Assembly: GCF_002894645.1 (NCBI RefSeq)
Contig: NZ_NCQY01000030.1
Coordinates: 62,001-126,000 of the forward strand
Reading direction: 5' to 3'
DNA from: Salinibacter altiplanensis
Lineage (GTDB): Bacteria; Bacteroidota; Rhodothermia; Rhodothermales; Salinibacteraceae
DNA length: 64,000 nucleotides
Shown: positions 21,618 to 37,657 of the stretch, in pieces
Position numbering within the stretch: the first letter of the stretch is position 1
How the letters are laid out: every line of letters starts with the position of its first letter
Notes under the pieces: generated by a model
The model's database searches: none
What the model saw: the letters and a program-made list of their open reading frames with translations, nothing else
What the model was told of the DNA's origin: nothing
Made by a program: the position numbers and the translations under genes

Positions 21618-21828
21618 TGGGTGGGGCGAGGCCTGCCGGGCCTGCATACGTAAAGGCCGACTGCGCACCGGCGAGGCCCCTCAGTTTGGGGGTTCTTTAC
21701 ATTTCCCCTTCAGCAGGACGACGGTGTCGTGAGGAAGCACTACTGGTTGCTCTCGCAGATGCGACCATACAAGGCACACGATGCCTCACCGTTGCCCCCA
21801 AGTCCTGACGCTGGAGTTTGTTCGTGGT

Positions 21829-22869
21829 ATGCGAGAAACTGCGCCCAAGCGCCTGGTTTTTTGTTTGCTCCTCGCGATTGGGGGAGCTGCCATGGGCTGC
21901 GAAAGTGACCTCGCGCGCCGTGTTGGCAAGTACGAGCAGACGCGGGACTATGAATCGGCGGCCCAACTTCTTCAGCGCGCCACCCAGCGCAATTCCCAAG
22001 ACGCCGAGGCCCATTTCTTGCTCGGGCGCGTCCAAGTGCGGCGGGGGGCGTACGAAGACGCGGTGGCGGCCTTGGAGACATCGAGAGAGCTCTCGCCCCG
22101 CTTTGAAGAGCAGATCGAGTTTCTGCGAGAAAAGCACGGCCGAGAGGAGTTTCAGGAGGGAAGAGAGGCCGACCAGTCTGGATCCTATCAGGCCGCCGTA
22201 CAGCATTATCGGAATGCAACGCTCCTTCTTCCGGACGACGCGGCCGCGCACCGGGCCCTCGGGCATGCCCTCGTGCAGGCCGACCAGGCCGCCGAGGCCG
22301 AGAAGGCCTATCAGGAGGCCCTAGACTTGGAGCCGGACGCGGAGACCCTCAACAATCTTGCGGCCCTCGCCTTCCGACGAGGCGCCTACGCCGAGACGGT
22401 ACGGTACTCCCAGCGAGCTCTCGGGCTTGACCCCGAAACGGCTCGTCAGTCCCGTCCCGAAGTGGTCGAACGGTTGGCCTACGCGCACCTTCGACTGGAT
22501 CAATTCTCAGCGGCGAAAGAGCGGTTCCGGGAGGCTCTGAGTACGACTCCCTCAGAAGAACTGCGGCGAGACTTCGCCTTTGCCTTGCACCAGCGAGGAG
22601 AGTACGAGGAGGCACGATCGCAGTTGGAGACGCTTGCCGCCGCCCAAACTCCGGACCGCTCGGTCCTCCACGCGCTGGGAGACACATATCTTGCGCTCGG
22701 AAAGCATCATGCCGCGACAGAGACATATCGTCGTCTGTACCAGCAACACCCGGAGGACGAAGATGCCCTTCAGAGTTTGATTATTGCCTATCACAACCTA
22801 GATCAGGACGAGGAGGCACAAAAATACACCGACCAGCTCAAAGAACTGACGGATGACGACAACAGGTAG
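21829..22869 (+). CDS. TPR-repeat lipoprotein, first gene of motor operon
   Basis: The 346-residue protein begins MRETAPKRLVFCLLLAIGG with lipobox AAMGC, so the mature chain is lipid-anchored. The rest is a string of tetratricopeptide repeats, for example AEAHFLLGRVQVRRGAYEDA and AEKAYQEALDLEPDAETLN. TPR lipoproteins act as scaffolds in envelope machines (compare PorW/SprE-type and BamD-like proteins). Its stop lies 11 bp before the ATG of the giant surface protein, which argues for co-transcription. The start at 21829 was chosen for its signal peptide; the frame is open from 21781. Confidence 0.8.
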   Translation: MRETAPKRLVFCLLLAIGGAAMGCESDLARRVGKYEQTRDYESAAQLLQRATQRNSQDAEAHFLLGRVQVRRGAYEDAVAALETSRELSPRFEEQIEFLREKHGREEFQEGREADQSGSYQAAVQHYRNATLLLPDDAAAHRALGHALVQADQAAEAEKAYQEALDLEPDAETLNNLAALAFRRGAYAETVRYSQRALGLDPETARQSRPEVVERLAYAHLRLDQFSAAKERFREALSTTPSEELRRDFAFALHQRGEYEEARSQLETLAAAQTPDRSVLHALGDTYLALGKHHAATETYRRLYQQHPEDEDALQSLIIAYHNLDQDEEAQKYTDQLKELTDDDNR

Positions 22870-22879
22870 TTGCCATCTG

Positions 22880-25714
22880 ATGCGCGGATCCCTCTTGGTG
22901 TACCTCGCCGGTGGACTCGTTCTTGGTCTGATTCTTTCGCTCCCAGAAACGGGCCATGCTCAGTCGTCGGGGATACAAGGCGTAGAGCCGGACGCAAACT
23001 CCATTGTGGCTCAGGCGACCGATACGATTGCCGTTGCCTTCGACAGTCCCATCACGGTGTCTGCCAATACCGACACCCTTCGCGTATTCGGCAGCCGGTT
23101 TGGTCGCCACGAAGGAACCATCCAGGTCTCGGGGACGCCGGCAGACTCACTCCTGTTCATTTCCGATTGCCCCTTTCGCCCTGGAGAGACGGTCACGGTC
23201 ACTGTGCCCAGAGATGTTAGCAGCACAGGAGGAGTCCCCAGGAACCCGTATACCTGGCAGTTTACGGTGCGGACGGAGTACGGAACGGGGAGGTTTATGC
23301 AGACGGCCTCTGTCTCCTTCGGCCAGGGACGTCAGGACCAAGCCGTCGCCAAGCTTGGATCCGTCGAAATTCCGTCTGCCCCTTTTGCCGCCGAGTTCAA
23401 CCGTCCACTGGACAACGCCGACCCGGGAGACCTTCGGACCGACGTGGCCTTTGTCAACCAGAAAGCAGAAGAGGTTCAGGTCCTGTTTGGGCCCAATCTC
23501 AACCGGTCGAGTTCAGTCTCCGTTTCTGTTCCTGGGGCAACAACACTGACGGGGGGAGACCTCAACGATGATGGGTTGCCCGACTTGGTGACCGTCAGCA
23601 GCTTTTCGGATAGTCTGACCGTCCTTTCGAACCAGGGAGGCACGTTTCAGGAGGCCGAGCGCTTCTCGACCGGATCCCGGCCTGCGGACGTGGCCATCGC
23701 GGACCTGGACGGCGACGGGGCACAGGACCTTGCGGTCTCGCTCTTCGGGGAGGATGAAGTGCACGTATACCTGAACGCGGACGACGGCACCGCCGCGTTT
23801 GAGCGTTCGGCGATCAAGATCCCTGTGGGAGCCGCCCCGACGAGCCTGACTGCCCGAGACATCGATCGGGACGGCAACTTGGATATACTGGTGGGGAGTG
23901 CGGGAGAAGAGCAGATTTCTGTTCTCGAGAATGAGGTCAACGGGGCGGGCGGATTTTCCCAAGCCGCCACGATTGATCTCGGGTTCGTGCCGGCATCCAT
24001 TGCTGCAAATGACGTGAGCGGGGGGAGGGACGGGCGTGTGGACTTGATCGTCAGTGGACAGGGGAGGGGAGAGGTGGTTCTCTTCGAAAATGATCCCGCA
24101 AATTCCTTCGGGTTCCGCGATTCGACTTCGCTTCCGTCGGCCCCGGACGGGCCGGCGCTCGGAACGGCGTTGGCCGACGTGAACGCAGGGGCCGCATCCG
24201 ACCATGAACTTGACCTGATCAGTTCGTACCGGTCCAGCAACGAGGTGCAGGTCCTGCGCAACTCAAACAATGGGTACGAGACCTCCCCTTCTGTGCTTTC
24301 GACGAGCAGTGCGCCGGTCGGGATCGTGGGGCTGGACGTTGAACGGGACGGAAGTCAGGACCTTGCGGTCGTTGGCCCCCGTGGCACGACGCTGAATCTG
24401 TTCACCAACCAGGGGGGGCGTCCGGGCCCGGTTGCGCTTACCCCGAATCCTCCCCTTAGCTTCGGTGGGGTGTGCGTTGACGAGGAGGGCGTTGACAGTG
24501 TGGAGGTCGAAAACGTCAGCAATTCTGAGGTCGTACTTCGGAAGTCGTCCATTCCCCCAGGGTTTGCCGTGGGAGACGCCCTTTCTCTCCCGGTGACGCT
24601 GCGACCCGGAGAGGCCAGGGACGTTCCCATCGTGTTCTCCCCGGAGGATATTCGAGAATACGACGAGCGGTTGGTGCTCGAGGCGAACGAGCAGACGCAA
24701 TTTTGCGGCCGGGACACGCCGCCCGTACCGCTTCCCATCAAGGTGGAGGGCACCGGGCAGGGCATCGAGGGATCGGCGAGCCCGCAGACCCTCGAATTCG
24801 GCGAGGTCATTGAAGGAAATGCCTCGTCCAAATCATTTACCATCCAGAATACAGGGAATGACGACGCCGACATCCAGGGGATTCAAGGGCTGGACGGCAC
24901 CCCGTTTGAGGTCACTGACGCCCCCTCGTCGGTCTCCGGAAGCGGGGAGGAACAAGTGACCGTCCGGTTCGCGCCGACAGCGCCCAATTCGTCCTTCAAA
25001 GAGACCGTCCGGGTGACGCTGGAGAGCAGCAGCTGTGACCAGCAAGAAACGGTACAGGTGGTGCTCAGGGGATCCTCGCGTCCCCCACGTCCCGATCTTG
25101 TGGCGGAGGAGGTCTTTTTCGTAGACGAGGAAGAGTCGAGCCCCGTGCGGGTCTCCGATACCTTAGGCGTCCAGTGCAGGTATAGCAATCAGGGGGGCAC
25201 TCGCGTCGACAACTCGTTCGAGTGGCAGATTCGTCGGGACGGTACCTCCCTGGACGCAGGAACGGATACCGGTTTGGCTGTGGGGGAAACTCGAGAGACG
25301 TCGACCGTCGAGGTGGTATTCTCCGAAGAAGGGCCCACCGAGATTACCTGTGAGGTGGACACGGACGACCTGATCACCGAGCAGGTCGAAGACAACAACA
25401 CGGCCCCGCTGTCCCTCACAGTGGAGTTGCCCGACCAGTTGCCCGTTCAGCCAAACCCGTTCACCCCCAATGGGGACTGTTGCAACAACGTGGTCGAGTT
25501 TAGGGTGAAGGAGTTCGGGTTGGACCAGCCCGCCGTAGAGATTTACACCCTTGAGGGGCGGCTCGTCCGGACTCTCAGGCAGATGGAGGGGGGAGCGCTG
25601 AAGTGGGACGGACGGGACGATGGCGGGGAACGGTTGCCTCCAGGGGCCTACCTGTATGTGGTTCAGGATGGGGGACAAGATGTAGCGTCGGGCGATGTTG
25701 TCCTGGCCCGCTAA
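22880..25714 (+). CDS. Giant secreted multidomain protein (Ig, FG-GAP repeats, ASH-like, CARDB, FlgD-like)
   Basis: The 944-residue protein has a signal peptide (LAGGLVLGLILSLPETGHAQ). An Ig-like Big_5-type module follows (about 30-135), then FG-GAP/VCBS repeats (about 200-510, e.g. LTGGDLNDDGLPDLVTV and VAIADLDGDGAQDLAVS). Next are two choice-of-anchor-D/ASH-like modules (about 520-740, e.g. LEFGEVIEGNASSKSFTIQN) and a CARDB module (about 745-850). The last 90 residues are FlgD-like (QPNPFTPNGDCCNNVVEF, ending PPGAYLYVVQDGGQDV). The Asp-rich FG-GAP loops suggest calcium binding. It should act at the cell surface as an adhesin or a structural part of the adjoining apparatus. An alternative start at 22853 overlaps the previous gene. 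Confidence 0.82.
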   Translation: MRGSLLVYLAGGLVLGLILSLPETGHAQSSGIQGVEPDANSIVAQATDTIAVAFDSPITVSANTDTLRVFGSRFGRHEGTIQVSGTPADSLLFISDCPFRPGETVTVTVPRDVSSTGGVPRNPYTWQFTVRTEYGTGRFMQTASVSFGQGRQDQAVAKLGSVEIPSAPFAAEFNRPLDNADPGDLRTDVAFVNQKAEEVQVLFGPNLNRSSSVSVSVPGATTLTGGDLNDDGLPDLVTVSSFSDSLTVLSNQGGTFQEAERFSTGSRPADVAIADLDGDGAQDLAVSLFGEDEVHVYLNADDGTAAFERSAIKIPVGAAPTSLTARDIDRDGNLDILVGSAGEEQISVLENEVNGAGGFSQAATIDLGFVPASIAANDVSGGRDGRVDLIVSGQGRGEVVLFENDPANSFGFRDSTSLPSAPDGPALGTALADVNAGAASDHELDLISSYRSSNEVQVLRNSNNGYETSPSVLSTSSAPVGIVGLDVERDGSQDLAVVGPRGTTLNLFTNQGGRPGPVALTPNPPLSFGGVCVDEEGVDSVEVENVSNSEVVLRKSSIPPGFAVGDALSLPVTLRPGEARDVPIVFSPEDIREYDERLVLEANEQTQFCGRDTPPVPLPIKVEGTGQGIEGSASPQTLEFGEVIEGNASSKSFTIQNTGNDDADIQGIQGLDGTPFEVTDAPSSVSGSGEEQVTVRFAPTAPNSSFKETVRVTLESSSCDQQETVQVVLRGSSRPPRPDLVAEEVFFVDEEESSPVRVSDTLGVQCRYSNQGGTRVDNSFEWQIRRDGTSLDAGTDTGLAVGETRETSTVEVVFSEEGPTEITCEVDTDDLITEQVEDNNTAPLSLTVELPDQLPVQPNPFTPNGDCCNNVVEFRVKEFGLDQPAVEIYTLEGRLVRTLRQMEGGALKWDGRDDGGERLPPGAYLYVVQDGGQDVASGDVVLAR

Positions 25715-25772
25715 GCCGAGCCTCCCTGTCCAGATGAGCACCGCGTCTTCCGAAACCGCACTCTGCAGTAGG

Positions 25773-27548
25773 ATGACCTCCGTTTCTTCATTGCGCCAAG
25801 CTTCTTTCCTCGTGGCCGCTCTACTCGTGTCCGCGTGGGGCACGCCCACATTTGGGCAGCAGTTTATCACGGGGCCGTCCACGGGCCTTGATGATCCAAA
25901 GTCCATGCTTCAGAATCCAGCCACGATTTCTTTCCATCGTCCGCAGGTTGCTCTGGGCATCAAGGCCCACCAGGTCGGAGTGGGAAGCGAGTCGGGAGTT
26001 CCGTTGCGCGAAGGGTTCGTGGGCGGGTCCACACCGTTTCTCATCGGGGATCGGATTGGGGTGGGCGGCACCGTTCGATACTTCGACTCGCCCATTTTTA
26101 AGAAGGGGGCCTTCGGAGCGAGTGTAACCGGCCGCATCTTCCGCTTCTTGTCCATCGGGGCGCGGGTCTCGGCGCTGAATCTATCGTACAATCAGTCGGA
26201 GTTTGTTGGGGTTGGGGAAGATCCCGTAATTGGGGGAGGGGCCGGCAAGACGACGTGGACGAGCACGGTGGGGCTCTTTGCCAAGCCCCTCCCGAACCTG
26301 AATCTTGCGGTCGGTGGCCGAAACTTGAATCGTCCCAATCTGGCGCTTGGTGGAGACAGCTTCCAGGCGCAGCCCGAATTCTTCGGGGGCGCCTCGTACG
26401 GGGTTGGGGCCGTGAGGGCCCGTGCCGAGGTTACAAACTCCCGGTACGGGCTTGACGCGCGCCTTGGGATCGAGGCGTACTCGACCGACGGGTCGTTCAT
26501 CCGAGTCGGCAGCGATGCCGGCTTCAACAACGGTCGCATTGAGGGACAGCTGCACGTCAGCGGCCCTCTGAGTGTGAACTACCAGTACAACGTCCCCACG
26601 TCGGATTTGCGGGGAGCATCAACTGGGTCCCATCAATTTACGGTGCTCTACGAGTTTGGGCGGACCCCGGAACTGCCCGAGAGGCCGTCGGCTCCGTCGA
26701 TGGTGATGGAGGCCAACCGATCGGCGGTCGAGTCCTCGCCGGAGCCAAGACTGCGAGTCGCCTCGGGCCATCAGATTCTTCAGCACCTTGAGAAGCGCGT
26801 CGAGCGGAAAATCGATGTGCCCCAGGCCGTGCTCCAAAACGTGTCCCGGGAGGCCCTGGGGCGACTGGACAGCACCATCGCCTCCCATCGGGGGCGCACG
26901 AGGGGACGGCCCGCCGACGACATTCCGGAGAACATCGAGGTGATGGATGTGCTTTCGGCGGAGTACGATTCGACCCTTTCGCGGGTCGGGCGCCGCTTGC
27001 AGGACGGCACGCCGTCTACCCTTGATGTTTTGCAGAAAGACCAAGACAGCGTCAAGGCGTACGGCCTTTACAACCGCGTGCGGGCCGAGACGGGGGTGTC
27101 GTCCGACCAGGTCCGTGTGGTGAATCCCGCCAACAGTCCGACGCCCCAATCCCGAAACCGCCAAGCCCTTCCCCGCGAGGAGTCCCGGTCGGTTCTTAAT
27201 CCTGAGAGCACGACGCTGACCCTCCTCTACCCCTACCTGTCGGACGAGAATGGCGTGTGGACGCTGACCGTGGAGGACGGGGCCGGAGAGGTCGTACGAA
27301 CGTTTCGGGGATCGGGCTCGCCGACACAACAGATCGAATGGGCCTGGACCGATGAGCAGGGCGAACCTCTCGACCAGGGGGTCTACCGGTACCAGCTTGC
27401 ATGGGAAGGCCCGAGTGGTACCTACAAGTCGGAGCGGCAGAAATTCACGGTTCAGAAGACCGTTCGAAAGGTCACGATTGAGGTGACTGAGAATCCGAAG
27501 GGAGTCGACGCCCCGTCGGATGCCCTCGAACTTCGAATTGACAAGTAA
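25773..27548 (+). CDS. PorP/SprF-like outer-membrane barrel protein with FlgD-like C-terminus
   Basis: The 591-residue protein has a signal peptide (ASFLVAALLVSAWGTPTFGQ). Its first 280 or so residues resemble PorP/SprF, a T9SS-associated barrel family: LDDPKSMLQNPATISFHRPQ near the N-terminus, then alternating beta-strands with Gly-rich turns. A central charged helical part follows (about 300-440), then a beta-sandwich like the FlgD Ig domain (VWTLTVEDGAGEVVRTFRGS, then LDQGVYRYQLAWEG). PorP-like proteins bind and anchor secreted adhesins in T9SS organisms. It lies between the giant surface protein gene and the ExbB-like gene, with only 12 bp before the latter. Barrel family assignment is by pattern and is less certain than the domain order. 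Confidence 0.7.
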   Translation: MTSVSSLRQASFLVAALLVSAWGTPTFGQQFITGPSTGLDDPKSMLQNPATISFHRPQVALGIKAHQVGVGSESGVPLREGFVGGSTPFLIGDRIGVGGTVRYFDSPIFKKGAFGASVTGRIFRFLSIGARVSALNLSYNQSEFVGVGEDPVIGGGAGKTTWTSTVGLFAKPLPNLNLAVGGRNLNRPNLALGGDSFQAQPEFFGGASYGVGAVRARAEVTNSRYGLDARLGIEAYSTDGSFIRVGSDAGFNNGRIEGQLHVSGPLSVNYQYNVPTSDLRGASTGSHQFTVLYEFGRTPELPERPSAPSMVMEANRSAVESSPEPRLRVASGHQILQHLEKRVERKIDVPQAVLQNVSREALGRLDSTIASHRGRTRGRPADDIPENIEVMDVLSAEYDSTLSRVGRRLQDGTPSTLDVLQKDQDSVKAYGLYNRVRAETGVSSDQVRVVNPANSPTPQSRNRQALPREESRSVLNPESTTLTLLYPYLSDENGVWTLTVEDGAGEVVRTFRGSGSPTQQIEWAWTDEQGEPLDQGVYRYQLAWEGPSGTYKSERQKFTVQKTVRKVTIEVTENPKGVDAPSDALELRIDK

Positions 27549-27560
27549 CGTCGCACACCC

Positions 27561-29171
27561 ATGATTCGACACCGCGCACGGCGCCTCTGGCTTCGATCCG
27601 GGATTTTCCTCGTGACCCTTGGGGGCATTCTGGGACTTGTCCCGCCGACCTTCGCACAGCAGGCTGCGGATACTACGTCGGCCGCCGCGGACACTGGGTT
27701 GGGATCCGGCGACGGGTTTCTGCTCTGGGACCTGATCGGGGAGGCGGGGGGCTTCCAGTACCCGATTTTCGGGCTCCTTGGGATTGGCCTGTTTCTGATT
27801 AGTGCCAAGCTCTACGAACTGTACAGCGACCGACGGGCGGCTCAGGAGCTGGAGGAGGCCTCCCTGGAGGGCATGGAGATGAACCGCATCGCCATGCTGG
27901 TCGCGAATCAGAAGAAGAGCATGCTTGCCGACCTGCAGGCGACGATGCTGAATGTGTTTCAGACCACGAAGGATGCGGGCACGCTCCACGAAGAGATCGC
28001 CAACTTCATACAGTTCCAGAGAGAGCGATTCGGCACTTTCAAACAGCGCATTGACTTTCTTGCGGACACGGCCGGCGCCGTGGGGCTCTTGGGGACGGTG
28101 TGGGGGATTCTTCGCGTGTTTACGGGCGGAGGAATCGACGACGAGCAACGGGTCCTTGCCGGGATGGGCATTGCCCTCGTCTCGACGCTGCTGGGCCTCG
28201 TCGTGAGCATCACGTTGAATCTGATCTCGACAGAGGTGTATAGCTTCTTCGACAATCGGCTCGACCAAATTGAGGACAAGGCCGATGAGCTCCGCTTCCG
28301 GCTTCTGGAGCTGGGGCTGAGTCAGAATGGGACGGCGGCGTCGGGGGCCGAGTCTTCCGCGGAAGTGCCTCCGGCGGAGGCGCGGGCCTCTGGGTCCCAA
28401 TCCACTCAGTCGGGCCGCCCCGATCCTCAGGCTCAGGCACCGGCGGCGATCCCTCCCGAAGACGAATTCGCGTCGGAGCGAGGATCCGGGGCCGGGCAGC
28501 CGGTCGCGGAGCATACAGATTCCCCCGTTGTCGCTACGGAGCCAACCCCGAAGCAATTGGACGTTGCTGAGTTGTCCGAGGCCGTCCCCGTCGCTTCGTC
28601 CCTCACGGACATCTCGGTGAAACTTCAGGGCGGAGACGGAGAGCCCGTTGCGGACGAGGTGGTCCAGATCGAGGTAGAGGACGGAAGCGGACACCTTGAG
28701 GACGGTCGGTCACAAATCACCCGGCGGACTGGAAACGATGGAACGCTCACCTTTGATTGGTGCCTCCCGGAGGCCCCCGGCCCCTGCAGCGCCGTTGCGG
28801 ATGTTCCGTCTGCCGATGCGTCGGGAACGACGGTTCACCTCAGCGTCCGGGCCCACCCGGGCGCCCCGAAGCGGTACGCACAGGGGGGCAACAATCAGGG
28901 AGCCGAAGTTGGGAGTCCTTTGCCGAAGCCGCTTAGCGTGAGAATTTTTGACGCCTACAACAACCCCGTTCCGGACCACCAGGTCAAGTTTCAGGTGGAG
29001 TCGGGGGAGGGCCGATTTGACAGGGGGAAGGCCTCCGTCGCCGTGCCCACGAATGAGTCGGGGGAGGCGGCCGCAACGTTTTGGGTCGGGGAGAAGCCCG
29101 GCCTGAATACCGTGTCTGCAGTGGTTGGCGACGAGAAGGTGAGCTTCCAGGCGATGGCGCTTGAGCAGTAG
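27561..29171 (+). CDS. ExbB/TolQ/MotA-family proton channel subunit with C-terminal Ig-like modules
   Basis: The 536-residue protein has a signal-like N-terminus (about 13-32) and TM1 at about 66-86. The family core follows: DTAGAVGLLGTVWGILRVF (TM2, about 168-188) and GMGIALVSTLLGLVVSITLN (TM3, about 200-220). This matches the GLLGTVWGI...A.STLxGL signature of ExbB/TolQ, which form pentameric proton channels with ExbD/TolR. Residues 255-345 are a Pro/Ala/Glu linker. Residues 348-536 hold two Ig-like modules resembling invasin Big_1 domains, the second opening LSVRIFDAYNNPVPDHQVKF. Ordinary ExbB is about 220-250 residues. The extension is very unusual, and canonical topology would place it in the cytoplasm. 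Two ExbD-like genes follow. Confidence 0.85.
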   Translation: MIRHRARRLWLRSGIFLVTLGGILGLVPPTFAQQAADTTSAAADTGLGSGDGFLLWDLIGEAGGFQYPIFGLLGIGLFLISAKLYELYSDRRAAQELEEASLEGMEMNRIAMLVANQKKSMLADLQATMLNVFQTTKDAGTLHEEIANFIQFQRERFGTFKQRIDFLADTAGAVGLLGTVWGILRVFTGGGIDDEQRVLAGMGIALVSTLLGLVVSITLNLISTEVYSFFDNRLDQIEDKADELRFRLLELGLSQNGTAASGAESSAEVPPAEARASGSQSTQSGRPDPQAQAPAAIPPEDEFASERGSGAGQPVAEHTDSPVVATEPTPKQLDVAELSEAVPVASSLTDISVKLQGGDGEPVADEVVQIEVEDGSGHLEDGRSQITRRTGNDGTLTFDWCLPEAPGPCSAVADVPSADASGTTVHLSVRAHPGAPKRYAQGGNNQGAEVGSPLPKPLSVRIFDAYNNPVPDHQVKFQVESGEGRFDRGKASVAVPTNESGEAAATFWVGEKPGLNTVSAVVGDEKVSFQAMALEQ

Positions 29172-29327: not shown

Positions 29328-29714
29328 ATGGGCCAGGCCGGATACATCCTTCGGTTCGTCGATATCGTGCTCATCTTGCTGTTTGGGATGATCAGTGTCT
29401 CTCGCATCGATCCCAGTGACATACAGCCCCCAGAGAGCACAGAGACCCCGGACAAGCCGATCGTCCGGGAGCGTGTTCTCTTCGTGGGGATCCAGACGAA
29501 CGGGACACTCCAGGTTGGGGAGGAAAATCGAATGCTTCACTCCCTCCCGGAATTGACGGGATTTCTTCGGGAAAAGATTGACCAATTTGGTCGGCCTTCC
29601 CTGAAAGTCCGAGTCCGCAGTAGCCACAGGGCCCCGATGCAGTATCTGATGCAGGTCGCCGCGCTCTGTGACGAAATGGGCCTTCGCAAATCCATAGAGG
29701 TCGAGACAAAATAG
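29328..29714 (+). CDS. ExbD/TolR-like protein 1
   Basis: This is a 128-residue protein with one N-terminal membrane helix (about 8-24, RFVDIVLILLFGMISV). The helix carries an aspartate at position 12, in the place of the essential proton-path Asp of ExbD/TolR. The soluble part ends in a compact alpha/beta domain (LKVRVRSSHRAPMQYLMQV, then ALCDEMGLRKSIEVE), which matches the ExbD/TolR periplasmic fold. It follows the ExbB-like gene after 156 bp and precedes a paralogue by 19 bp. Together these would build a proton-driven motor in the inner membrane. Confidence 0.83.
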   Translation: MGQAGYILRFVDIVLILLFGMISVSRIDPSDIQPPESTETPDKPIVRERVLFVGIQTNGTLQVGEENRMLHSLPELTGFLREKIDQFGRPSLKVRVRSSHRAPMQYLMQVAALCDEMGLRKSIEVETK

Positions 29715-29733: not shown

Positions 29734-30153
29734 ATGCAAAATACTGGCTTTCTGGTGCGGTTTATAGACATCGGGCTTATAATCCTATTCGGGTTCATAT
29801 GGGTAAGCGATATCAGCACGTTTTCTCACATAGAGATGTCCGGGGACGATCAGCAGAACCAGTCGGAGCAAACCGAAGAGGTCACAATTCTGCGCGTACA
29901 AGCCCGAAAGGGAGGAACCTACAACGTCGTAAATCGCGAGACGGATGCTGTTGAGTGCAGCCGTGTTGATAAATCGGGCCTGGAAGGCTGCCTTCGTCGA
30001 GCACGGGAGAACGTTTCGCAGAGAGGACGGCGGGCGGTTGTGCTCATTGAGCCCAGCCAAGAGTCAGCCGTCCAGCACACCGTCGACGTGCTCGACATTT
30101 GCCAACGCCTGGGGATCCCGAAGAACATCCACAAAAAGCCCCTTCAATTGTAG
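29734..30153 (+). CDS. ExbD/TolR-like protein 2
   Basis: The 139-residue paralogue of the preceding gene keeps the same layout. Its helix, RFIDIGLIILFGFIWVS, also has Asp at position 12. A Gln/Glu-rich linker follows, then an alpha/beta domain ending VDVLDICQRLGIPKNIH. Two cysteines in VECSRVDKSGLEGCLRRA could form a disulfide in the periplasm. Two different ExbD-type subunits next to one ExbB suggest a heterodimeric shaft. The gene is 3 bp upstream of the TonB-like gene. Confidence 0.8.
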   Translation: MQNTGFLVRFIDIGLIILFGFIWVSDISTFSHIEMSGDDQQNQSEQTEEVTILRVQARKGGTYNVVNRETDAVECSRVDKSGLEGCLRRARENVSQRGRRAVVLIEPSQESAVQHTVDVLDICQRLGIPKNIHKKPLQL

Positions 30154-30156
30154 ATC

Positions 30157-31242
30157 ATGATTTCGCCGGACCCCCGCAATGACAAATCTCGGCAGAGGAG
30201 GGTGGCGGCCTTCACGACGATGGGTGTGGTGGCCCTTGCCGCGCTTTTCGTCGGGGTCGTAAGCGTCCCGGACTTCACGAGCCCGCAGGAGCAATTCCGG
30301 AAACTCGACCCACAGCGGTTTGCCGATCTGGACATGAATTCCGAACCGGAGCCCGAACAGGAGTCTGAAAGCGAGTCGGAGTCGCAGGAAGAAGAGAACC
30401 CCGAGGAAGCCGAGCAAGACGCCGAGCCCGAGAAGGCCCCGGAGCGCGTGGAGGCCCCCGACCTCTCTTCGGATGGGCTCAACGTGGATCCTTCCCCCTC
30501 AGAAACCCCGAACGAGACCAGCCGCAATCCCGATCAGTCGGAGACCTCGGGGGGGAATGCTTCGGTGGCGGTGGAGCGGAACGAGGTGGGGGAGGCGGGG
30601 GGCGCCCAGACCTTCGATGATCCCAGCACGGCGGCCCTTCCGAGCGGGGAGAGCGGGAGCGCCACCAGTGGATCGGAAGGAACGGACATCGCACTTGCGG
30701 AGGGCTCTGGGTCGGGAGAAGGAGATGCCTCGGGAGACGACTTCGGGGGCGGGGGCGAGGTGGCCGCTGGGAGCGAGGGACAGGCGGGCGGCGAGAGCGG
30801 GTCCTCGGTGGAGGTGTCCCTGAAAGACGTCAGCCAGGAAGATTATGGCAACCTCGAGGTCAACAAGCTGATTCAGTGGATGAAGAATCATCCCGCTGAA
30901 CTGCCACCTGGTGTTCAACAGCTGGTTCAGTACCGGGCCGACCATCTGTCTTCCAAGCTTCGCTCCATTGAGGCAGAAGGAGAAAGATACGAATTGTACC
31001 TGATGTGCAAGGAGAGCCTGAAGGAGGTGCACATCGTTTTGGTGAAAGACGAGCGAGCGCAGTATCTGGTGGACCGTTCCTTTCAGAAGCAGAGCCGAAA
31101 GTTTCGGGCCGGTCCTGTGAGACGAAGTGAGGACAGCATCGTCGGGGTCCGAACGGAAGGGCGCCCCCGGGGAAAAGAGGCGGAGCGGTTCTATGATGTG
31201 TTCCTCTCGTGGTGGAAACGGGCGAAAAAAGACGTAGAATAA
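30157..31242 (+). CDS. TonB-like envelope-spanning protein
   Basis: This 361-residue protein has a TonB layout: a basic cytoplasmic start (NDKSRQRRVAAFTTMG) and one membrane helix (about 18-38). A long extended acidic linker follows (Glu/Pro/Ser-rich at about 60-105, Gly/Ser-rich at about 125-220), then a C-terminal domain of about 130 residues beginning near VSLKDVSQEDYGNLEVNKL. The C-terminal domain lacks the recognisable YPxxA/G...V.V.F pattern of TonB_C, so its outer-membrane partner may be unusual. It starts 3 bp after the second exbD-like gene. I infer that it transmits force from the ExbB/ExbD motor to the outer membrane. Confidence 0.7.
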   Translation: MISPDPRNDKSRQRRVAAFTTMGVVALAALFVGVVSVPDFTSPQEQFRKLDPQRFADLDMNSEPEPEQESESESESQEEENPEEAEQDAEPEKAPERVEAPDLSSDGLNVDPSPSETPNETSRNPDQSETSGGNASVAVERNEVGEAGGAQTFDDPSTAALPSGESGSATSGSEGTDIALAEGSGSGEGDASGDDFGGGGEVAAGSEGQAGGESGSSVEVSLKDVSQEDYGNLEVNKLIQWMKNHPAELPPGVQQLVQYRADHLSSKLRSIEAEGERYELYLMCKESLKEVHIVLVKDERAQYLVDRSFQKQSRKFRAGPVRRSEDSIVGVRTEGRPRGKEAERFYDVFLSWWKRAKKDVE

Positions 31243-31263: not shown

Positions 31264-32793
31264 ATGAATCGATTTGTTTATTCCTTCCTTGTCGGAGTCT
31301 TGTTGATTGGGTGCGGGTCGAGCAGCCCTACGACGACCTCTACGCCCCGTTCTGCCTCGGAGAACTCAGCCGCGGCGGCCTTGAGCGTGTCGGTGCCCCC
31401 CGGGGTGGACACGAGCACGGCGCGACGAGCGGACTCCCTGGCCGACCGGTCCTTTGTCTCATTGGACAAGCAGCGGCGGGCGAGCGCGAGGGCGCGGGAG
31501 GGGCAGTCGCTCGTGCAGATCAGCGACTCCCTGTGGAGGTATTTGGAGATGGGCAGTGACACGACGGAGGTCGACAGTGTCAGTCAGAAAAAGCGAAATG
31601 CGGCCATCCGGGCGTACAACCGCGGGGCCGATTCGCTACAGAAATACCTGAAGGTCACGAAGGCGGCCGACCTCGACAGCACCCGGCTGCGTCAGCTCCA
31701 AACAGACCTCCTCAACGGGGCCCAGTCGGCCTTCGAGGAGGCGATTCAATTGAACCCCTACGATGATGCCACACGGAACCGACTGGCCCAGATTTACCAA
31801 CGTCGAGCCGAGCGCCTCGGGGAGGAAGAGGCCTACCAGCAAGCGATTGACATTTACGAAAAGCTCGTTCGGCTCCGAAAAGACCAGCCGGCCCCGTTCC
31901 TCAACCTCGCGAACGCCTACTACGAGACAGGCGCGTACGGGCAGGCCGCGGAGAACTATCGCCAGGCCCGAGACACGTACCTCGAATCGGTCGAACTGTC
32001 CCTCGATGGTGATCGACGGGTGGACACTACGCGTGTCTTCCAGTACGCCCTTGCGGAGGCGGATGCGCACCGTTATGCGCGAAATACCGACCCTGCTCTC
32101 CAGGGGTATCGGCGGGCGTTGAAATACGCCAGCACGTCCGAGCAGAGGGAGACCGCGAAGGGCTGGGTGGGCTGGGTAACCTGGGACGACGGAAACATCG
32201 ACGCCAGCTTTGCGCGCGATTCTCTCTCTGCCCTTGCGGGCCGTGGGAAGTATGCCGCGGCGGTCCAGGGCTTTCGGACATTGAAGCCCCGTCTTCAAAC
32301 GCAGTCCGCCCGCGACGAAATCGACTGGCGTCTTGCCCAGGCTGAATATCAGAATGAACAACGAGCCCGGGCCGCTGATCGGCTGCAGTCTCTGTTTCAA
32401 CGGACCGAAGTGGATGCGAATGGCGCCCCGGTTGACTCCACCTATCAGCAGTATTTCGACACGTACGGCACGGTTTGCCTGAACTTGGGTCGGCAAAAGC
32501 GGAGCGAGGATCTACGTACGGCCCTGACGTACTTTCAACAGTCCGCCGAGGTCCCCTGGGAGCGCCAGCCCCTCGCTCAGTTGGAGGCCGGAAAGCTGCT
32601 TCGCAACAACGTTGAGAAGTCCGTACAGTACCTGGAGCGAGCCGCGGACGAGCCGGACGTGCTTGCGACGGAGGACAAACTGGACCTTTACCGAAATCTG
32701 GTCAAGCAGCACCGGCGCCTCGGGAATCGGCAGAAGGCCCTACAATATCAAAAAGTCTTTCAAAAGATCAGAAAACGAGCGGCCGCTAGCTGA
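31264..32793 (+). CDS. TPR-repeat lipoprotein, second in motor operon
   Basis: The 509-residue protein starts MNRFVYSFLVGVLLIGC with a clear lipobox (LIGC) and Ser/Thr-rich residues just after it. The mature part has tetratricopeptide-type repeats (AYQQAIDIYEKLVRLRKDQP, then AYGQAAENYRQARDTYLESV) through to the end (RQKALQYQKVFQKIRKRA). It may act as an outer-membrane scaffold for the PorP-like barrel or the TonB-like protein. It starts 21 bp after the TonB-like stop, and its stop overlaps the frame of the next gene. Confidence 0.8.
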   Translation: MNRFVYSFLVGVLLIGCGSSSPTTTSTPRSASENSAAAALSVSVPPGVDTSTARRADSLADRSFVSLDKQRRASARAREGQSLVQISDSLWRYLEMGSDTTEVDSVSQKKRNAAIRAYNRGADSLQKYLKVTKAADLDSTRLRQLQTDLLNGAQSAFEEAIQLNPYDDATRNRLAQIYQRRAERLGEEEAYQQAIDIYEKLVRLRKDQPAPFLNLANAYYETGAYGQAAENYRQARDTYLESVELSLDGDRRVDTTRVFQYALAEADAHRYARNTDPALQGYRRALKYASTSEQRETAKGWVGWVTWDDGNIDASFARDSLSALAGRGKYAAAVQGFRTLKPRLQTQSARDEIDWRLAQAEYQNEQRARAADRLQSLFQRTEVDANGAPVDSTYQQYFDTYGTVCLNLGRQKRSEDLRTALTYFQQSAEVPWERQPLAQLEAGKLLRNNVEKSVQYLERAADEPDVLATEDKLDLYRNLVKQHRRLGNRQKALQYQKVFQKIRKRAAAS

Positions 32794-32813
32794 TGAACGT
32801 CACAAGAGAAGCC

Positions 32814-33647
32814 ATGACGAGCATTCCACGCTATGTACTGGTCTGCATCGCCCTCGGATGGATGGGGATGGGGTGGGGAGGGAAGGCCCTCGGGCAAGCA
32901 CAACGGGCCGACTTTACCCAGGTCACGCGACCGGTGGCACAGCTTTCCGATCGGGCTGCGATCGACGAATTTCTCACCGAGCTGATCATCACCCCACAGA
33001 TTCCTCAGGACTCCATCCGGAGGGTGGAGGTCATCGACGTGACCGGAAATGGATATGGCCCGGACGACCTGGTCGTGGTGTATCCGAGCGGAGAAACCTT
33101 CAACATCGACCCCTCGCTGGTAACTGGACGGGTTCAGGACATCATGAGGAGCTGGCGCCTGGAATCGGAATTTCAGTACGACGGTGCCAACGCCCCCGCG
33201 GAAACGTTTCGCCCGGACACAGTCCAGACGGACACCACAGGTGCAAATCCGCCTGGGCCTCCATCCCCCCCGCCGGAGAGGGCCAAGAATGGCATCATGG
33301 CCGATGTGCTTGAAACGGTGCAGCGCAACTACCGGGGAGAAGCCGTAAGTCTCCTGCTGGAGAAGACGGCCAGCGGATTTACCTTCGAGATGTGGGACTA
33401 CGACGAGCAGGCGCTGCGACACCAAGCCCCCCCGGGAGGGCCCTCCGACACCGTCCGGACACGGGATCTGGTGTATGTCGTTCGGAGTGACTCGGTGATC
33501 TACGACGTCGTGTACATCAACCGAACCGTCGAAGAAACCGAGTACATTCCTCAAGGGCCTACATCAGCGCTTCCTGGAGAGAAGGAGCGGGAGGGGGCGG
33601 CAACAGCGGGCCCGTCTTCGAGAGCGGCAACGCCGCGACGGCCTTGA
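32814..33647 (+). CDS. Secreted protein, last gene of motor operon
   Basis: The product (277 residues from this start) opens with a signal peptide (VLVCIALGWMGMGWGGKALGQA). After it come a conserved-looking block (RVEVIDVTGNGYGPDDLVVV), a Pro-rich linker and a second block (TRDLVYVVRSDSVIYDVVYI). The end is low-complexity and basic. I cannot name the family. Position at the end of a PorP/ExbB/ExbD operon recalls GldN/PorN, but no GldN motif is visible. An alternative start at 32793 overlaps the previous stop by one base (TGATG), which supports translational coupling. Confidence 0.6.
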   Translation: MTSIPRYVLVCIALGWMGMGWGGKALGQAQRADFTQVTRPVAQLSDRAAIDEFLTELIITPQIPQDSIRRVEVIDVTGNGYGPDDLVVVYPSGETFNIDPSLVTGRVQDIMRSWRLESEFQYDGANAPAETFRPDTVQTDTTGANPPGPPSPPPERAKNGIMADVLETVQRNYRGEAVSLLLEKTASGFTFEMWDYDEQALRHQAPPGGPSDTVRTRDLVYVVRSDSVIYDVVYINRTVEETEYIPQGPTSALPGEKEREGAATAGPSSRAATPRRP

Positions 33648-33740: not shown

Positions 33741-35480
33741 TCAACTTGGCGGAGCGTCATTGATCGGCCGGACGACCCGGAAGCCAATGTTGTTGGCGCG
33801 GTATGTCGGGGAGGCTCGGTTGCGGGTCGGGAGCCAGCAGGCGTCGTTGTACCAACTTCCACCACGGCATACCCGGAGCTCTCCCGAACTAGGGCCTCGG
33901 GGGTCTTCCTCGGAGCTCCTCTGATAATATTCGGGACTGTACCAGTCTTGTGTCCATTCCCAAACATTTCCCTGTACGTCGTACAGCCCCCACTCATTGG
34001 GCGCCTTCTGACCCACAGGGTGCGTCCCTCCGCTCGCATTTTCGGCGTACCACGTCGTTTCTGCCCAGTCGCCCGGCAGTTTGGCGGCCGTCCCCCCTGC
34101 ACGAGCGGCGTACTCCCACTCCGCTTCCGTGGGAAGTCGTCCGCCCGCCCATTCCGCGAAGGCCTGTGCGTCGTTCCAGCTGACGTTGACAACGGGGTGC
34201 TCGTCCGACTGCTCGATCCCAGGGTTCCGCCACGTGAGGCCCGGTGTGCGGAGGCTATCGCGGCTCGATGCCCGCCAGGCCCCGTTGAGCCGTTCGGCGT
34301 CGGTCTCGTAGCCCGTGGCCTCTACGAACATCCGAAATTGGCGAACCGTGACTTCGTGGGCACTCATCCGAAACGGAGTCGTAATTTTGACTTGATGAGA
34401 CGGGCGGGCGTCGGCACTGCCTCGGTCCGACCCCATCACGAATGATCCTCTCGTGATCCGCGCCCATTGTATGTCGAGGTCCGACGGGGTGGGGGCCGGG
34501 GACTCTACCCTCACATGCGCCGCCGCCTCGTCGGTTTTTCCCCGCGGGTCGGCGACCGTATACCGGAGGGTATCGGTTCCCGTGAAGCCATCGGCGGGAG
34601 TGTAGGTGACCCGGGTGCTGTCGGACGATACGCTCAGTTTGCCGTTGGACACAGAGGGTACGTCTGTGAGGTGGAGCGGGAGGGAGTCCGGACTCGTGTC
34701 GTTGGACAAAATGTTGATCGTGACGGCCTTCCCTGCCGGTGTCTGTGCCTGATCGGCCTTTGCCCGGGGGGCGTCCGGCACGGCTTTGACTCGCACGCTG
34801 GTTCGAATGCTGTCTACGCGCTGGGGATACCGCAGGACGTAGCGAAAGTGGTCCCGGCCCGCGAAGTCAGGGAGGGGCCGGTACGTGACGGCGCTGCTGT
34901 CGGCAGAAAAGCGCAGCGATCCGTGGGCCGGGGGATCGAGAAGCGACACGGACACCGCGGCGTCCGGGGAAGCAGCGAGCTGTATGTCCGCGGCGGTATC
35001 CTCCTGGGTTACGACTAGGTCCGACGTTCGAGAGGCTCCTACGATCTCGCGAGTGCGGTCGACAACGACATCGGCCCATTGTGGGCGGAGGCTGTACACG
35101 CCGAGGCCCACGATGAGGAGGGCCAGAAGCCCCAACCCAAAGCGTCTCGTTCTGCCTTGGTCGTTCGAGCCGGGACGGGTCTCCGGGTCCCCGGGCCGAA
35201 TAATTGTCGGGGCCGATTCCTTTGGGGGGGACGGGGAAGCTCCCGAATCCGTCGCGGGGATGGTGACATGGGTCTTCGCGTCCGTCTGGATACGTACGGT
35301 CTGTTCCCAGTGCGGGCCGACGTCACGTTCAGCCTCCAGGTCGTAGGAGTCGGGCAGCAGCTCCACCGTCTCCACGTCGCCTTTTTCGAGTGACGCCAAC
35401 GGGTCCCCGTCGAGCAGCACCTCGCACGACACGTCTGCTTCGATTCGCAGGTGGCCGGTTCCAGAAATAGAAGCAGTCAT
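33741..35480 (-). CDS. Membrane-anchored FGE-sulfatase (SUMF1) family protein with PEGA-like and cadherin-like modules
   Basis: The 579-residue protein has four parts. First is an N-terminal PEGA-like domain (about 8-75). One membrane helix follows (about 113-131, FGLGLLALLIVGLGVYSL), then two tandem cadherin/VCBS-like modules (about 150-325, each ending F.G.D..RY.V). Last is an FGE-sulfatase domain (about 330-575) with FVMGSDRGSADARPSHQVKI, GGRLPTEAEWEYAARAG, YDVQGNVWEWTQDWY and GGSWYNDACWLPTRNRA. Only one of the two catalytic cysteines of true formylglycine-generating enzymes is visible, so it is probably structural or carries another activity. GldK/GldJ of the T9SS belong to this superfamily. 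It is convergent with the motor operon. Confidence 0.83.
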   Translation of the reverse strand: MTASISGTGHLRIEADVSCEVLLDGDPLASLEKGDVETVELLPDSYDLEAERDVGPHWEQTVRIQTDAKTHVTIPATDSGASPSPPKESAPTIIRPGDPETRPGSNDQGRTRRFGLGLLALLIVGLGVYSLRPQWADVVVDRTREIVGASRTSDLVVTQEDTAADIQLAASPDAAVSVSLLDPPAHGSLRFSADSSAVTYRPLPDFAGRDHFRYVLRYPQRVDSIRTSVRVKAVPDAPRAKADQAQTPAGKAVTINILSNDTSPDSLPLHLTDVPSVSNGKLSVSSDSTRVTYTPADGFTGTDTLRYTVADPRGKTDEAAAHVRVESPAPTPSDLDIQWARITRGSFVMGSDRGSADARPSHQVKITTPFRMSAHEVTVRQFRMFVEATGYETDAERLNGAWRASSRDSLRTPGLTWRNPGIEQSDEHPVVNVSWNDAQAFAEWAGGRLPTEAEWEYAARAGGTAAKLPGDWAETTWYAENASGGTHPVGQKAPNEWGLYDVQGNVWEWTQDWYSPEYYQRSSEEDPRGPSSGELRVCRGGSWYNDACWLPTRNRASPTYRANNIGFRVVRPINDAPPS

Positions 35481-35983
35481 ACGAGTACGGATAGCTAGAG
35501 CTGCCTAAAGCCCAACGTGCACTGTCGGATTGCCGATTGTGGTGTGCCCCTCATCTACGTCTGTTGCCGATCAGAGGGGGACCGAGAACGGTGTGATGCC
35601 CCCTGCAGCACGACAAAAATTCTGCAGCCCGAGTCATCCTGAGGCTGACGCCTGTCAGCCGAAGGATCTCTCCGAATATGGCGGAGACAAGCCGGCGCAG
35701 CACTGCCAACGAAATCCGTTTCCGCCAACATTGAGGGGGGGCGCCACTCCCTCTCGAATTTTTGTCGTGTAGTGTGACGACGCACACGAAGAATAAGATA
35801 TGAATAGGGAGCTACCAATCCCAACTGGAACGAGCCCCGGCAGAGCATCGGCGCAGCCTGGGCCAGGGATCACAGGGACGGCTGCAACGAACCGGCGTTG
35901 CGGGGATGCATATACATCATCGGGTTTCCCACCAGCGGGGGACTTGCGTCCACGAGCTCGCTTTTGCACCCCAATCCGCATCC
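35481..35983. other. Intergenic region with a MITE-like element
   Basis: No gene is supported in these roughly 500 bp. The centre is a 161-bp sequence with perfect 14-bp inverted ends (listed separately). The right third should hold the promoter of the Ppx/GppA gene, and the left edge the promoter of the convergent operon's FGE-family neighbour. Confidence 0.6.
35609..35769. mobile_element. MITE-like element with 14-bp terminal inverted repeats
   Basis: The ends CACGACAAAAATTC and GAATTTTTGTCGTG are perfect reverse complements 161 bp apart overall. Inside lies GTCATCCTGAGGCTGACG and then CAGCCGAAGGATCTC, the TCATCCTGAG...CGAAGGATC palindrome type that recurs in repeat families of many bacterial genomes. 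There is no coding capacity. No clear target-site duplication can be seen at either edge. It could be a non-autonomous transposon relic or a REP-like regulatory hairpin. Confidence 0.6.
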
Positions 35984-37657
35984 ATGTCCGCTTCCCACGA
36001 GCGCGCCGCCTGTACTCTCCTTCCGGAAACCACCTACGGGGCCACCGAGGCGGCGTCGCCGGTCCGGGTTTGTGTAATCGATCTTGGAACCAACTCCTTC
36101 CACGCCATCATCGTGGATGCCCACCCGAACGGCAGCTATCAGGTGGTGGACCGGCTGAAAGAGATGGTGCGCCTCGGCGAGCACGGGCTCGACGCCAATC
36201 GCCTGCCGGAGGACGCAATGGCGCGGGGACTGGATGCCCTCACCCGCATCAAGCTACTGGCTGACGGGTGGGACACGCGCGAGTACCTGGCGTTTGCCAC
36301 GAGTGCCATCCGGGAGGCGAGCAACGGCGGGACCTTCATCGAGCGAGCCCGCGAAGAGCTGGGGCTTCGCATCCGGCCCATCAGTGGAGAGCAGGAGGCG
36401 AGGCTGATCTTTCAAGGGGTCAGTCGGACCGAAGAGTTTACCGAGCCTACGCTGGTGATGGACATCGGGGGCGGATCGGTCGAGTTCATCGTCGTGGACG
36501 ACGACACGCCGGTCTACAGCACGAGCCTGAAGCTTGGGGCGGCCCGCATGACCGAGCAGTTCGTGACGACGGATCCGATGTCGGAAGACGAACAGGCGCG
36601 TCTGCGGGCGCACTTCAAGGGCATGCTGGAAGGGGTGGTGACGGCGTGTCGGGAGCACGGTGTGGGCCGAGTCGTGGGGTCTTCCGGCACCATGAAAAGC
36701 CTGGCCCGAGTGACCCTGGCGCAGGCGGACATTCCGGACCGATCGCCGTTTCAGGCGGCGTTTCCGATCCCGGATGTGCGCTCGTCCCTTCGCGGGGTGA
36801 TGCAAGCCACGGCCGAAGAGCGAAGAACCCACCCGGCCATCGAGCCGCGACGGGTCGACCAGATTGGGGCGGGGGCCGTGTTGCTCGATACGGTCTGTGC
36901 AGGGTTGCCCTCGCTGCGTCACTTCGCGGTCTCGCCGAATGCCCTACGGGAAGGGATGGTGGTTCACTTCCTGGATGCAAACTACGACCGCCTCCAGCGC
37001 ATGGCTCCATTCCGGGATCCCCGGCGCCGCAGCGTGCACGAAATGGCCTACCGGTTTCAGTGGGAGGAGGAGCACGCCCAGCATGTGGCGGCCACGGCGA
37101 CATTCCTGTTCGACGTGTGCCGCCCGCTCTACGACGGGCCTGCGAGCGATGTGGAGCTTCTGGAGTATGCGGCCCTCCTGCACGATGTTGGCTATCTTGT
37201 CACGCACGATAAGCACCACGAACACTCCCGATATCTCATCGAGCACGCCGACCTCCAGGGCTTCCGGGCCGAAGAGGTGGCGATCATGGCCCTGGTTGCC
37301 CGGTACCATCGTGGCGCGGCACCGGCCCCCTCGCATGAACGCTATGGCCGCCTGCCGCCGCGGCGTCGGCGTCGCGTACGCCAGCTTGCGGCCCTCCTGC
37401 GCGTCGCGGAGAACCTGGATCGGAGCCACTTTCAGAACGTGGTGGCGCTGCGTACGTCCCTCACCGACGCGGCGCTGCATGTGCTTGCCGCCACGAAAGC
37501 GGATCCCCAGCTCGAGGTGTGGGCCGCCGAGGAGCACGGGGCCCTCTTTGAAGAGGCGTTCGACCGAGCCCTGCACGTGGCGCCCACCGAGATTCCGGTC
37601 CACGCGAATGGACAACGGGCCGTCTCCCAAATCCCCGAGCATTCTCTCCGGGCGTAG
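35984..37657 (+). CDS. ppx: Ppx/GppA family phosphatase (exopolyphosphatase / pppGpp phosphohydrolase)
   Basis: This enzyme of the actin-like ATPase fold hydrolyses polyphosphate or converts pppGpp to ppGpp. The phosphate-1 motif is VCVIDLGTNSFHAIIVDAH, the next conserved block is FATSAIREASNG, and the phosphate-2 motif is VMDIGGGSVEFIVVDDD. The C-terminal part is an HD-type domain, seen in ALLHDVGYLVTHDKHHEHSR. At 557 residues it resembles full-length Ppx rather than short GppA. The start MSASHERAAC at 35984 is preferred over the ATG at 35906. The choice between Ppx and GppA cannot be made from sequence alone. Confidence 0.9.
   Translation: MSASHERAACTLLPETTYGATEAASPVRVCVIDLGTNSFHAIIVDAHPNGSYQVVDRLKEMVRLGEHGLDANRLPEDAMARGLDALTRIKLLADGWDTREYLAFATSAIREASNGGTFIERAREELGLRIRPISGEQEARLIFQGVSRTEEFTEPTLVMDIGGGSVEFIVVDDDTPVYSTSLKLGAARMTEQFVTTDPMSEDEQARLRAHFKGMLEGVVTACREHGVGRVVGSSGTMKSLARVTLAQADIPDRSPFQAAFPIPDVRSSLRGVMQATAEERRTHPAIEPRRVDQIGAGAVLLDTVCAGLPSLRHFAVSPNALREGMVVHFLDANYDRLQRMAPFRDPRRRSVHEMAYRFQWEEEHAQHVAATATFLFDVCRPLYDGPASDVELLEYAALLHDVGYLVTHDKHHEHSRYLIEHADLQGFRAEEVAIMALVARYHRGAAPAPSHERYGRLPPRRRRRVRQLAALLRVAENLDRSHFQNVVALRTSLTDAALHVLAATKADPQLEVWAAEEHGALFEEAFDRALHVAPTEIPVHANGQRAVSQIPEHSLRA

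Follow-up and report, generated by a model that had tools for sequence, protein, structure and literature searches.

A receptor-like FGE-fold protein beside an ExbB/ExbD operon with a type IX secretion signal in Salinibacter altiplanensis

A gene at positions 33,741 to 35,480 of a 64,000-nucleotide stretch of Salinibacter altiplanensis DNA (the window) encodes a protein with the fold of the formylglycine-generating enzyme (FGE) and adjoins an operon that encodes an ExbB/ExbD motor. Is this protein a relative of GldK and GldJ, the FGE-fold proteins of the type IX secretion system (T9SS), as an earlier note on this DNA had suggested, or a protein of another kind, and does it have a functional tie to the motor? 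The reading that we prefer, with a probability of about 0.5, is that it is a kinase-less relative of receptor kinases and an accessory of the neighboring T9SS-linked operon, in which its FGE head performs docking or sensing. A search of a limited collection of papers found no description of the operon or of the FGE-fold protein.

Architecture of the FGE-fold protein and of the convergent operon

The FGE-fold gene encodes 579 aa from its ATG within an open frame of 587 aa that closes eight codons upstream, and a longer upstream fusion is therefore excluded. The gene and its predicted domains are as follows.

33741..35480, minus strand: FGE-fold protein, whole gene, 579 aa from ATG
35253..35462, minus strand: PEGA-like seven-strand domain, aa 7-76, predicted cytoplasmic (AlphaFold model; matches to juxtamembrane modules of kinases)
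35085..35141, minus strand: single transmembrane helix, aa 114-132 (hydropathy and flanking charges; helix 115-130 in the model)
34785..35042, minus strand: first Big_9/cadherin-like domain, aa ~147-232 (Big_9 stretch; model strands 147-232)
34515..34775, minus strand: second Big_9/cadherin-like domain, aa 236-322 (Big_9 stretch)
33768..34460, minus strand: FGE/SUMF1 domain without the catalytic CxxxxC, aa 341-571 (PF03781; fold matches; cysteine positions)

The assignment to the FGE-sulfatase family, the two cadherin-like modules, and the anchoring through an internal helix, all proposed in the earlier note, were borne out. Pfam searches matched FGE-sulfatase (PF03781, 207.8 bits) at aa 341-571 and Big_9 (93.3 bits) in two stretches, and one helix was found at aa 114-132, with neither an N-terminal signal peptide nor a lipobox visible at the start of the protein. 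The helix is preceded by RTRR, which places the positive residues on its N-terminal side (hydropathy and charge), and it was kept at the matching place in both full-length orthologues, those of genomes G011 and G045. In the AlphaFold model (mean pLDDT of 82.7, from a 20-row alignment), a seven-strand beta domain spans aa 9-74 and is followed by a linker of low confidence and the helix; further beta domains reach aa 326, after which comes the FGE fold. Judging from this model, the name "PEGA-like" appears fair for the N-terminal domain, although the Pfam cut-off for PEGA was not reached: no match was found in the window protein or in that of G011, and the G045 orthologue scored 12.0 bits against a cut-off of 20.8.

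The gene had been described as standing at the end of the motor operon. It is located outside the operon, on the opposite strand, and is transcribed towards it in a convergent (tail-to-tail) arrangement in which the two stop codons are 93 bp apart. The genes on the other side are as follows.

21781..22869, plus strand: TPR protein with a lipobox-like start, upstream of the cargo gene
22853..25714, plus strand: FG-GAP/Ig/CARDB surface protein, 953 aa, with a CHU_C type IX secretion signal (29.9 bits, cut-off 27)
25695..27548, plus strand: PorP/SprF-like outer-membrane protein with a FlgD-like C-terminus (PorP_SprF 17.0 bits, below the 22.3 cut-off)
27561..29171, plus strand: ExbB/TolQ motor protein with a C-terminal Big_1 (PF01618 51 bits, PF02369 38.4 bits)
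29328..29714, plus strand: ExbD/TolR, first copy (PF02472 33.5 bits)
29734..30153, plus strand: ExbD/TolR, second copy (PF02472 42.3 bits)
30157..31242, plus strand: TonB-like single-pass protein with a conserved C-terminal domain (no Pfam family; alignment)
31264..32793, plus strand: TPR protein with a lipobox-like start (LLIGC, Cys17; TPR_19)
32793..33647, plus strand: g8, exported protein with the motif TxNG[YF]GPDD, last gene of the operon (no Pfam family)

The T9SS link that the earlier note had suspected holds by way of this operon. The CHU_C signal was above its cut-off in the window and also in loci L053, L040, and L060, and PorP_SprF, which stayed below its cut-off in the window, exceeded it in the relative L060 (32.3 bits). 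According to PMC9143113, type B CTD proteins are retained at the surface by PorP-like proteins in both P. gingivalis and F. johnsoniae.

Several parts of the operon had no named family. The model of the TonB-like protein, with a mean pLDDT of only 65.3, had no PDB match at E 0.001 in Foldseek; its C-terminal domain, to which no Pfam name applies, contained invariant W241, L249, P250, E290, H292, and other residues. The g8 family, likewise without a Pfam name, and its TxNG[YF]GPDD motif are common to Rhodothermales and Gemmatimonadota MAGs (the window and 20 loci). A distant form of the operon in Rhodothermales (L072:9935-18859) harbored g8 and a DUF4402-like protein (24.0 bits, cut-off 25.2), followed by a chaperone-like protein and a 773-aa, possibly usher-like protein (both read from the sequence, with no Pfam support), and ended in ExbB, ExbD, ExbD, TonB-like, and TPR genes. 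At the far side of the FGE-fold gene, a Ppx/GppA phosphatase that also carries an HD domain as a fusion (window 35906-37657) adjoins it in the window genome (G000) and in G011; the Ppx/GppA gene was not found in the fetched stretch of G045, where the operon was found. A tRNA search of the window returned none.

Fold and family relationships of the FGE domain

In structure comparisons of the model, the FGE domain matched human FGE (2aii; Z 32.9, rmsd 2.1, 240 residues) and PorK (Z 26.5, rmsd 2.9, 233 residues); the VIA-align matches were taken up by the FGE domain, and the fold comparison barely covered the PEGA-like part. The domain contained two cysteines only, C538 and C548. In a phmmer alignment with the S. 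coelicolor enzyme, which is gapped at this place, C548 aligned with the second catalytic cysteine of FGE and the first corresponded to a gap, the reverse of the earlier claim that the second was missing. Both cysteines were kept in the G011 orthologue and in a fragment from G002, and neither was present in the G045 orthologue. Of the features of true FGE, the fold is present and the catalytic CxxxxC pair is absent, and the domain is seemingly a pseudoenzyme without the catalytic cysteine pair. PMC12421860 describes an FGE fold without this pair as common to PorK, GldK, and GldJ, and reports that PorK, lacking the catalytic cysteines, serves as a docking hub.

It is highly improbable that the protein is catalytically active as a member of the FGE superfamily and modifies a component of the system by formylglycine generation or by an EgtB- or PvdO-like oxidation. 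The fold is intact, and the models for EgtB (TIGR03440), SenA, and PvdO gave 103.8, 89.9, and 85.1 bits, but these scores were all far below the cut-offs (360 bits for EgtB), no N-terminal EgtB-type (DinB-type) domain was detected by Pfam at E 1, CxxxxC is absent, and the G045 orthologue had no cysteine at the C-terminal motif.

With the NCBIfam model for GldK (TIGR03525), the FGE-fold protein scored 84.1 bits and its orthologues 82.2 and 79.5 bits against a cut-off of 350, and the GldJ model gave 32 bits. Three GldK-like proteins from the order scored 217-235 bits with the GldK model, also below the cut-off, and formed a clade of their own. GldK-like genes were located at most about 2 kb from a GldM match in G016, G020, and G022, which are members of the genus, and in G023; the FGE-fold gene had no gldL/gldM neighborhood and was accompanied by the ExbB/ExbD operon instead. 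Some GldK-like proteins of the genus, such as that at L005:1252-3054 (G016; GldK 229.9 bits), appear from their sequence to carry an outer-membrane-barrel-like N-terminal region fused to the FGE domain.

A tree was calculated from 49 SUMF1 domains, which were selected from the fetched loci by a sequence pattern (proteins not fitting it were left out) and assigned to groups by motif. The three orthologues grouped together (98), with generic SUMF1 proteins next to them, and fell into none of the three groups GldK, EgtB, and true FGE; the position outside the GldK fork had an SH-aLRT of 100. AU tests, for which row L017 was removed, did not reject a sister relation to GldK (p 0.275), true FGE (0.34), or EgtB (0.587), and the EgtB-constrained tree scored above the free tree. 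Membership of the three families was rejected nonetheless: of GldK/GldJ by the low family scores, the position outside the GldK clade, the inner-membrane helix, and the absence of a lipobox; of EgtB by the score of 103.8 against 360 bits, the position outside its group, and the absence of a DinB-type domain; and of true FGE by the absence of CxxxxC and the position outside its clade. Kinship with GldK and GldJ, as the earlier note had it, is thus not upheld. A better match to ergothioneine-type or unrelated SUMF1 enzymes, which the same note had named as evidence against its idea, was found in part: the EgtB score exceeded that of GldK, yet lay below its own cut-off, and the nearest rows of the tree were generic SUMF1 proteins.

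SprA was found in all 12 genomes searched, with or without the operon, and the operon is therefore not the general T9SS motor. GldM was matched in five of the 12, every time below the family cut-off, and was not detected in G000, G011, G014, G015, G045, G055, and G056, where SprA was present. The FGE-fold protein could in principle be the machine's counterpart of GldK/GldJ, with the PorP/SprF-like carrier coupled to it, and, where a lineage lacks GldK and GldM, stand in for the ring or track of the T9SS. Consistent with this are the FGE fold without a cysteine pair in PorK, GldK, and GldJ, the covalent link between SprF and GldK through twin cysteines in the SprF tail of F. johnsoniae (PMC12635249), the lack of a GldM match in the carriers G000, G011, and G045, and the finding of no FGE-fold gene other than the window's in G000. 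We nevertheless consider such a role unlikely, given the GldK score, the position outside the GldK clade, and the inner-membrane helix in place of a lipoprotein signal. Replacement of GldK where GldM is missing is further weakened by G002, which contained both the FGE-fold gene and GldM, and by G055 and G056, which contained neither. A disulfide coupling of the SprF-GldK type was rejected, because a C-terminal tail cysteine was absent from the PorP-like proteins of all seven operons examined.

The N-terminal module and receptor kinases

When aa 1-134 were searched alone, they matched the orthologues in G011 and G045 and two further proteins, in G069 (E 2.1e-6) and G016 (E 1.9e-4). Both of these are Ser/Thr kinases (Pkinase above the Pfam cut-off), in which the module sits between the kinase and the helix; that of G016 (1084 aa) also contained Big_9, in the order kinase, PEGA-like module, helix, Big_9, and FG-GAP. 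No Pkinase match was obtained with Pfam in the FGE-fold protein. Judged by these N-terminal matches, the window protein resembles a receptor kinase that lacks the kinase domain.

A profile of the five N-terminal sequences had matches in 32 of the 114 genomes of the order; since it includes the G069 and G016 kinases, its scores are circular for those two. Among 30 loci obtained with this profile, three belonged to the FGE-fold protein family and 14 encoded kinases (11 by motif, three by Pfam). The module was located before the helix in six of these kinases, including those of G069 and G016, and after it in eight, and a cytoplasmic placement of the PEGA-like part (N-in) therefore rests on the nearest kinases and on the charge. 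This predicted placement is less sure than the resemblance to a kinase-less receptor. Ordinary Ser/Thr kinases were found in all 12 genomes searched, two of them in G000, so that a separate kinase as a partner of the FGE-fold protein is possible.

The window itself carries a Ser/Thr kinase domain at about 53738-54490 on the minus strand, within a frame of 642 aa. Its distance from the FGE-fold gene is about 18 kb, and in G011 a Ser/Thr kinase is likewise located about 18 kb from the copy there. Elsewhere, a protein at L125:1-2196 (G049) contained two PEGA domains and a TonB_C domain.

Conservation of the linkage and comparison with known systems

A profile search of the 114 genomes of the order found the full-length FGE-fold protein in three: the window genome G000, G011 of the same genus (66% identity), and G045 of another family (~40%, tblastn); these are the only three full-length sequences. 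The C-terminal 58 aa were found at a contig end in a fourth genome, G002. All four copies adjoin the operon and are convergent with it. The earlier note had proposed a check of the linkage in related genomes and would have counted a restriction to this genome against its idea; no such restriction was observed, and the arrangement is more than a coincidence in a single genome. In an evenly drawn set of 394 genomes of the phylum, full-length matches were obtained in two, G000 and G045; G011 was not among the matches and was taken as not drawn. A plasmid search returned 604 records with common domains only, none of which covered 80% of the query.

An ExbB of the operon type (E 1e-30) was present in 10 of the 114 genomes. 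The FGE-fold gene was absent from the readable sequence downstream of g8 in G022, G056, and G055 (C126) and from the operon of L060, and it is therefore not essential to the machine. It was also lacking in the more distant operon form of G039 and G040, and the sequence of G025 and of the second G055 copy stops too early downstream of g8 to show its presence or absence. A separate scan with g8 identified 20 loci in Rhodothermales-type and Gemmatimonadota genomes; among 22 loci examined (these 20 together with L056 and L057), the FGE-fold gene was found at L058 only, which is the G002 contig again. In a tree of the operon (five proteins, 11 loci), the four carriers and G022, which lacks the gene, formed one clade (100/98), and thus one gain and one loss suffice to explain the distribution. 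This pattern fits a tie to the machine and also a lineage-bound passenger.

That the protein is an ordinary receptor-like SUMF1 protein, carried along with the operon in one lineage and with no functional tie to it, is a reading that we regard as rather unlikely. The gene is on the strand opposite to the operon, all carriers belong to one operon clade in which one of the five members lacks the gene, and SUMF1 proteins are common in the order, where 90 of the 114 genomes matched the profile at 1e-20 and where sequence reading indicated fusions to modules as varied as TPR, caspase, and TIR-like. On the other hand, the linkage was kept across families at ~40% protein identity while the other neighbor differed, and the operon was present wherever the full-length protein was found.

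Because the gene is kept beside a cargo and motor operon, the FGE-fold protein probably serves the operon machine in sensing or docking. As an accessory of this kind, it would have a cytoplasmic PEGA-like domain, one helix, two Big_9 spacers that raise the head into the periplasm, and a periplasmic FGE-fold head which, after the loss of the cysteine pair, probably works as a docking or ligand-binding domain; we propose the docking role by analogy with the PorK hub. The head might meet g8, the TPR protein, or the TonB-like rod in the periplasm, and the cytoplasmic module could either transmit the state of the machine or anchor the machine through the inner membrane. The CHU_C surface protein would be exported by the type IX system and carried by its PorP/SprF-like outer-membrane partner, which g8, the TPR protein, and the TonB-like rod may link to the dedicated ExbB/ExbD2 motor; the motor would act on this PorP-like carrier. 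A bolder reading, which we consider quite unlikely, is a second, GldLM-independent kind of surface machine, whose PorP/SprF-like carrier holds the type IX-exported surface protein and is moved by its private ExbB/ExbD2 through the TonB-like rod, and which recruited the kinase-less FGE-fold receptor in one lineage. Under it, the receptor would couple or sense in the periplasm, and the FGE fold would have been recruited independently of GldK/GldJ. If these proposals are true, an FGE fold without an active site would have become linked to a carrier of the T9SS type without belonging to GldK/GldJ, its route being a receptor kinase from which the kinase domain disappeared. The operon would then offer an alternative to GldLM, open to testing, for driving surface proteins exported by the T9SS in genomes where SprA is kept and GldM was not found.

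The window protein shares with PorK, GldK, and GldJ of the T9SS ring or track the FGE fold without the cysteine pair and a tie to a T9SS-type carrier system; unlike them, it is not a lipoprotein, has an inner-membrane helix, reaches 84 of 350 bits with the GldK model, and is encoded beside ExbB/ExbD rather than GldL/M. It resembles the formylglycine-generating enzyme (SUMF1) in fold (Z 32.9) and differs from it in having no CxxxxC active site. Compared with the receptor Ser/Thr kinases of the order (Pkinase, PEGA-like, TM, Big_9, FG-GAP), it has the PEGA-like module, helix, and Big_9 in the same sequence, whereas the kinase is lacking and the FGE domain stands in the place of the FG-GAP repeats. 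The operon is similar to the SprB-SprF-GldLM gliding apparatus in the type B T9SS signal of a surface protein encoded beside a PorP/SprF-like protein and in the ion-driven motor, and is distinguished from it by an ExbB/ExbD motor with two ExbDs, a TonB-like rod, and a carrier without tail cysteines. Likened by description, the AglRQS-Glt machinery of Myxococcus also combines one TolQ-like, two TolR-like, TonB-like, TPR, and outer-membrane parts; to our knowledge, a T9SS cargo with a PorP-like carrier is not part of that machinery. In sum, the observation holds, the GldK idea falls, and a link to the T9SS is recovered by way of the operon.
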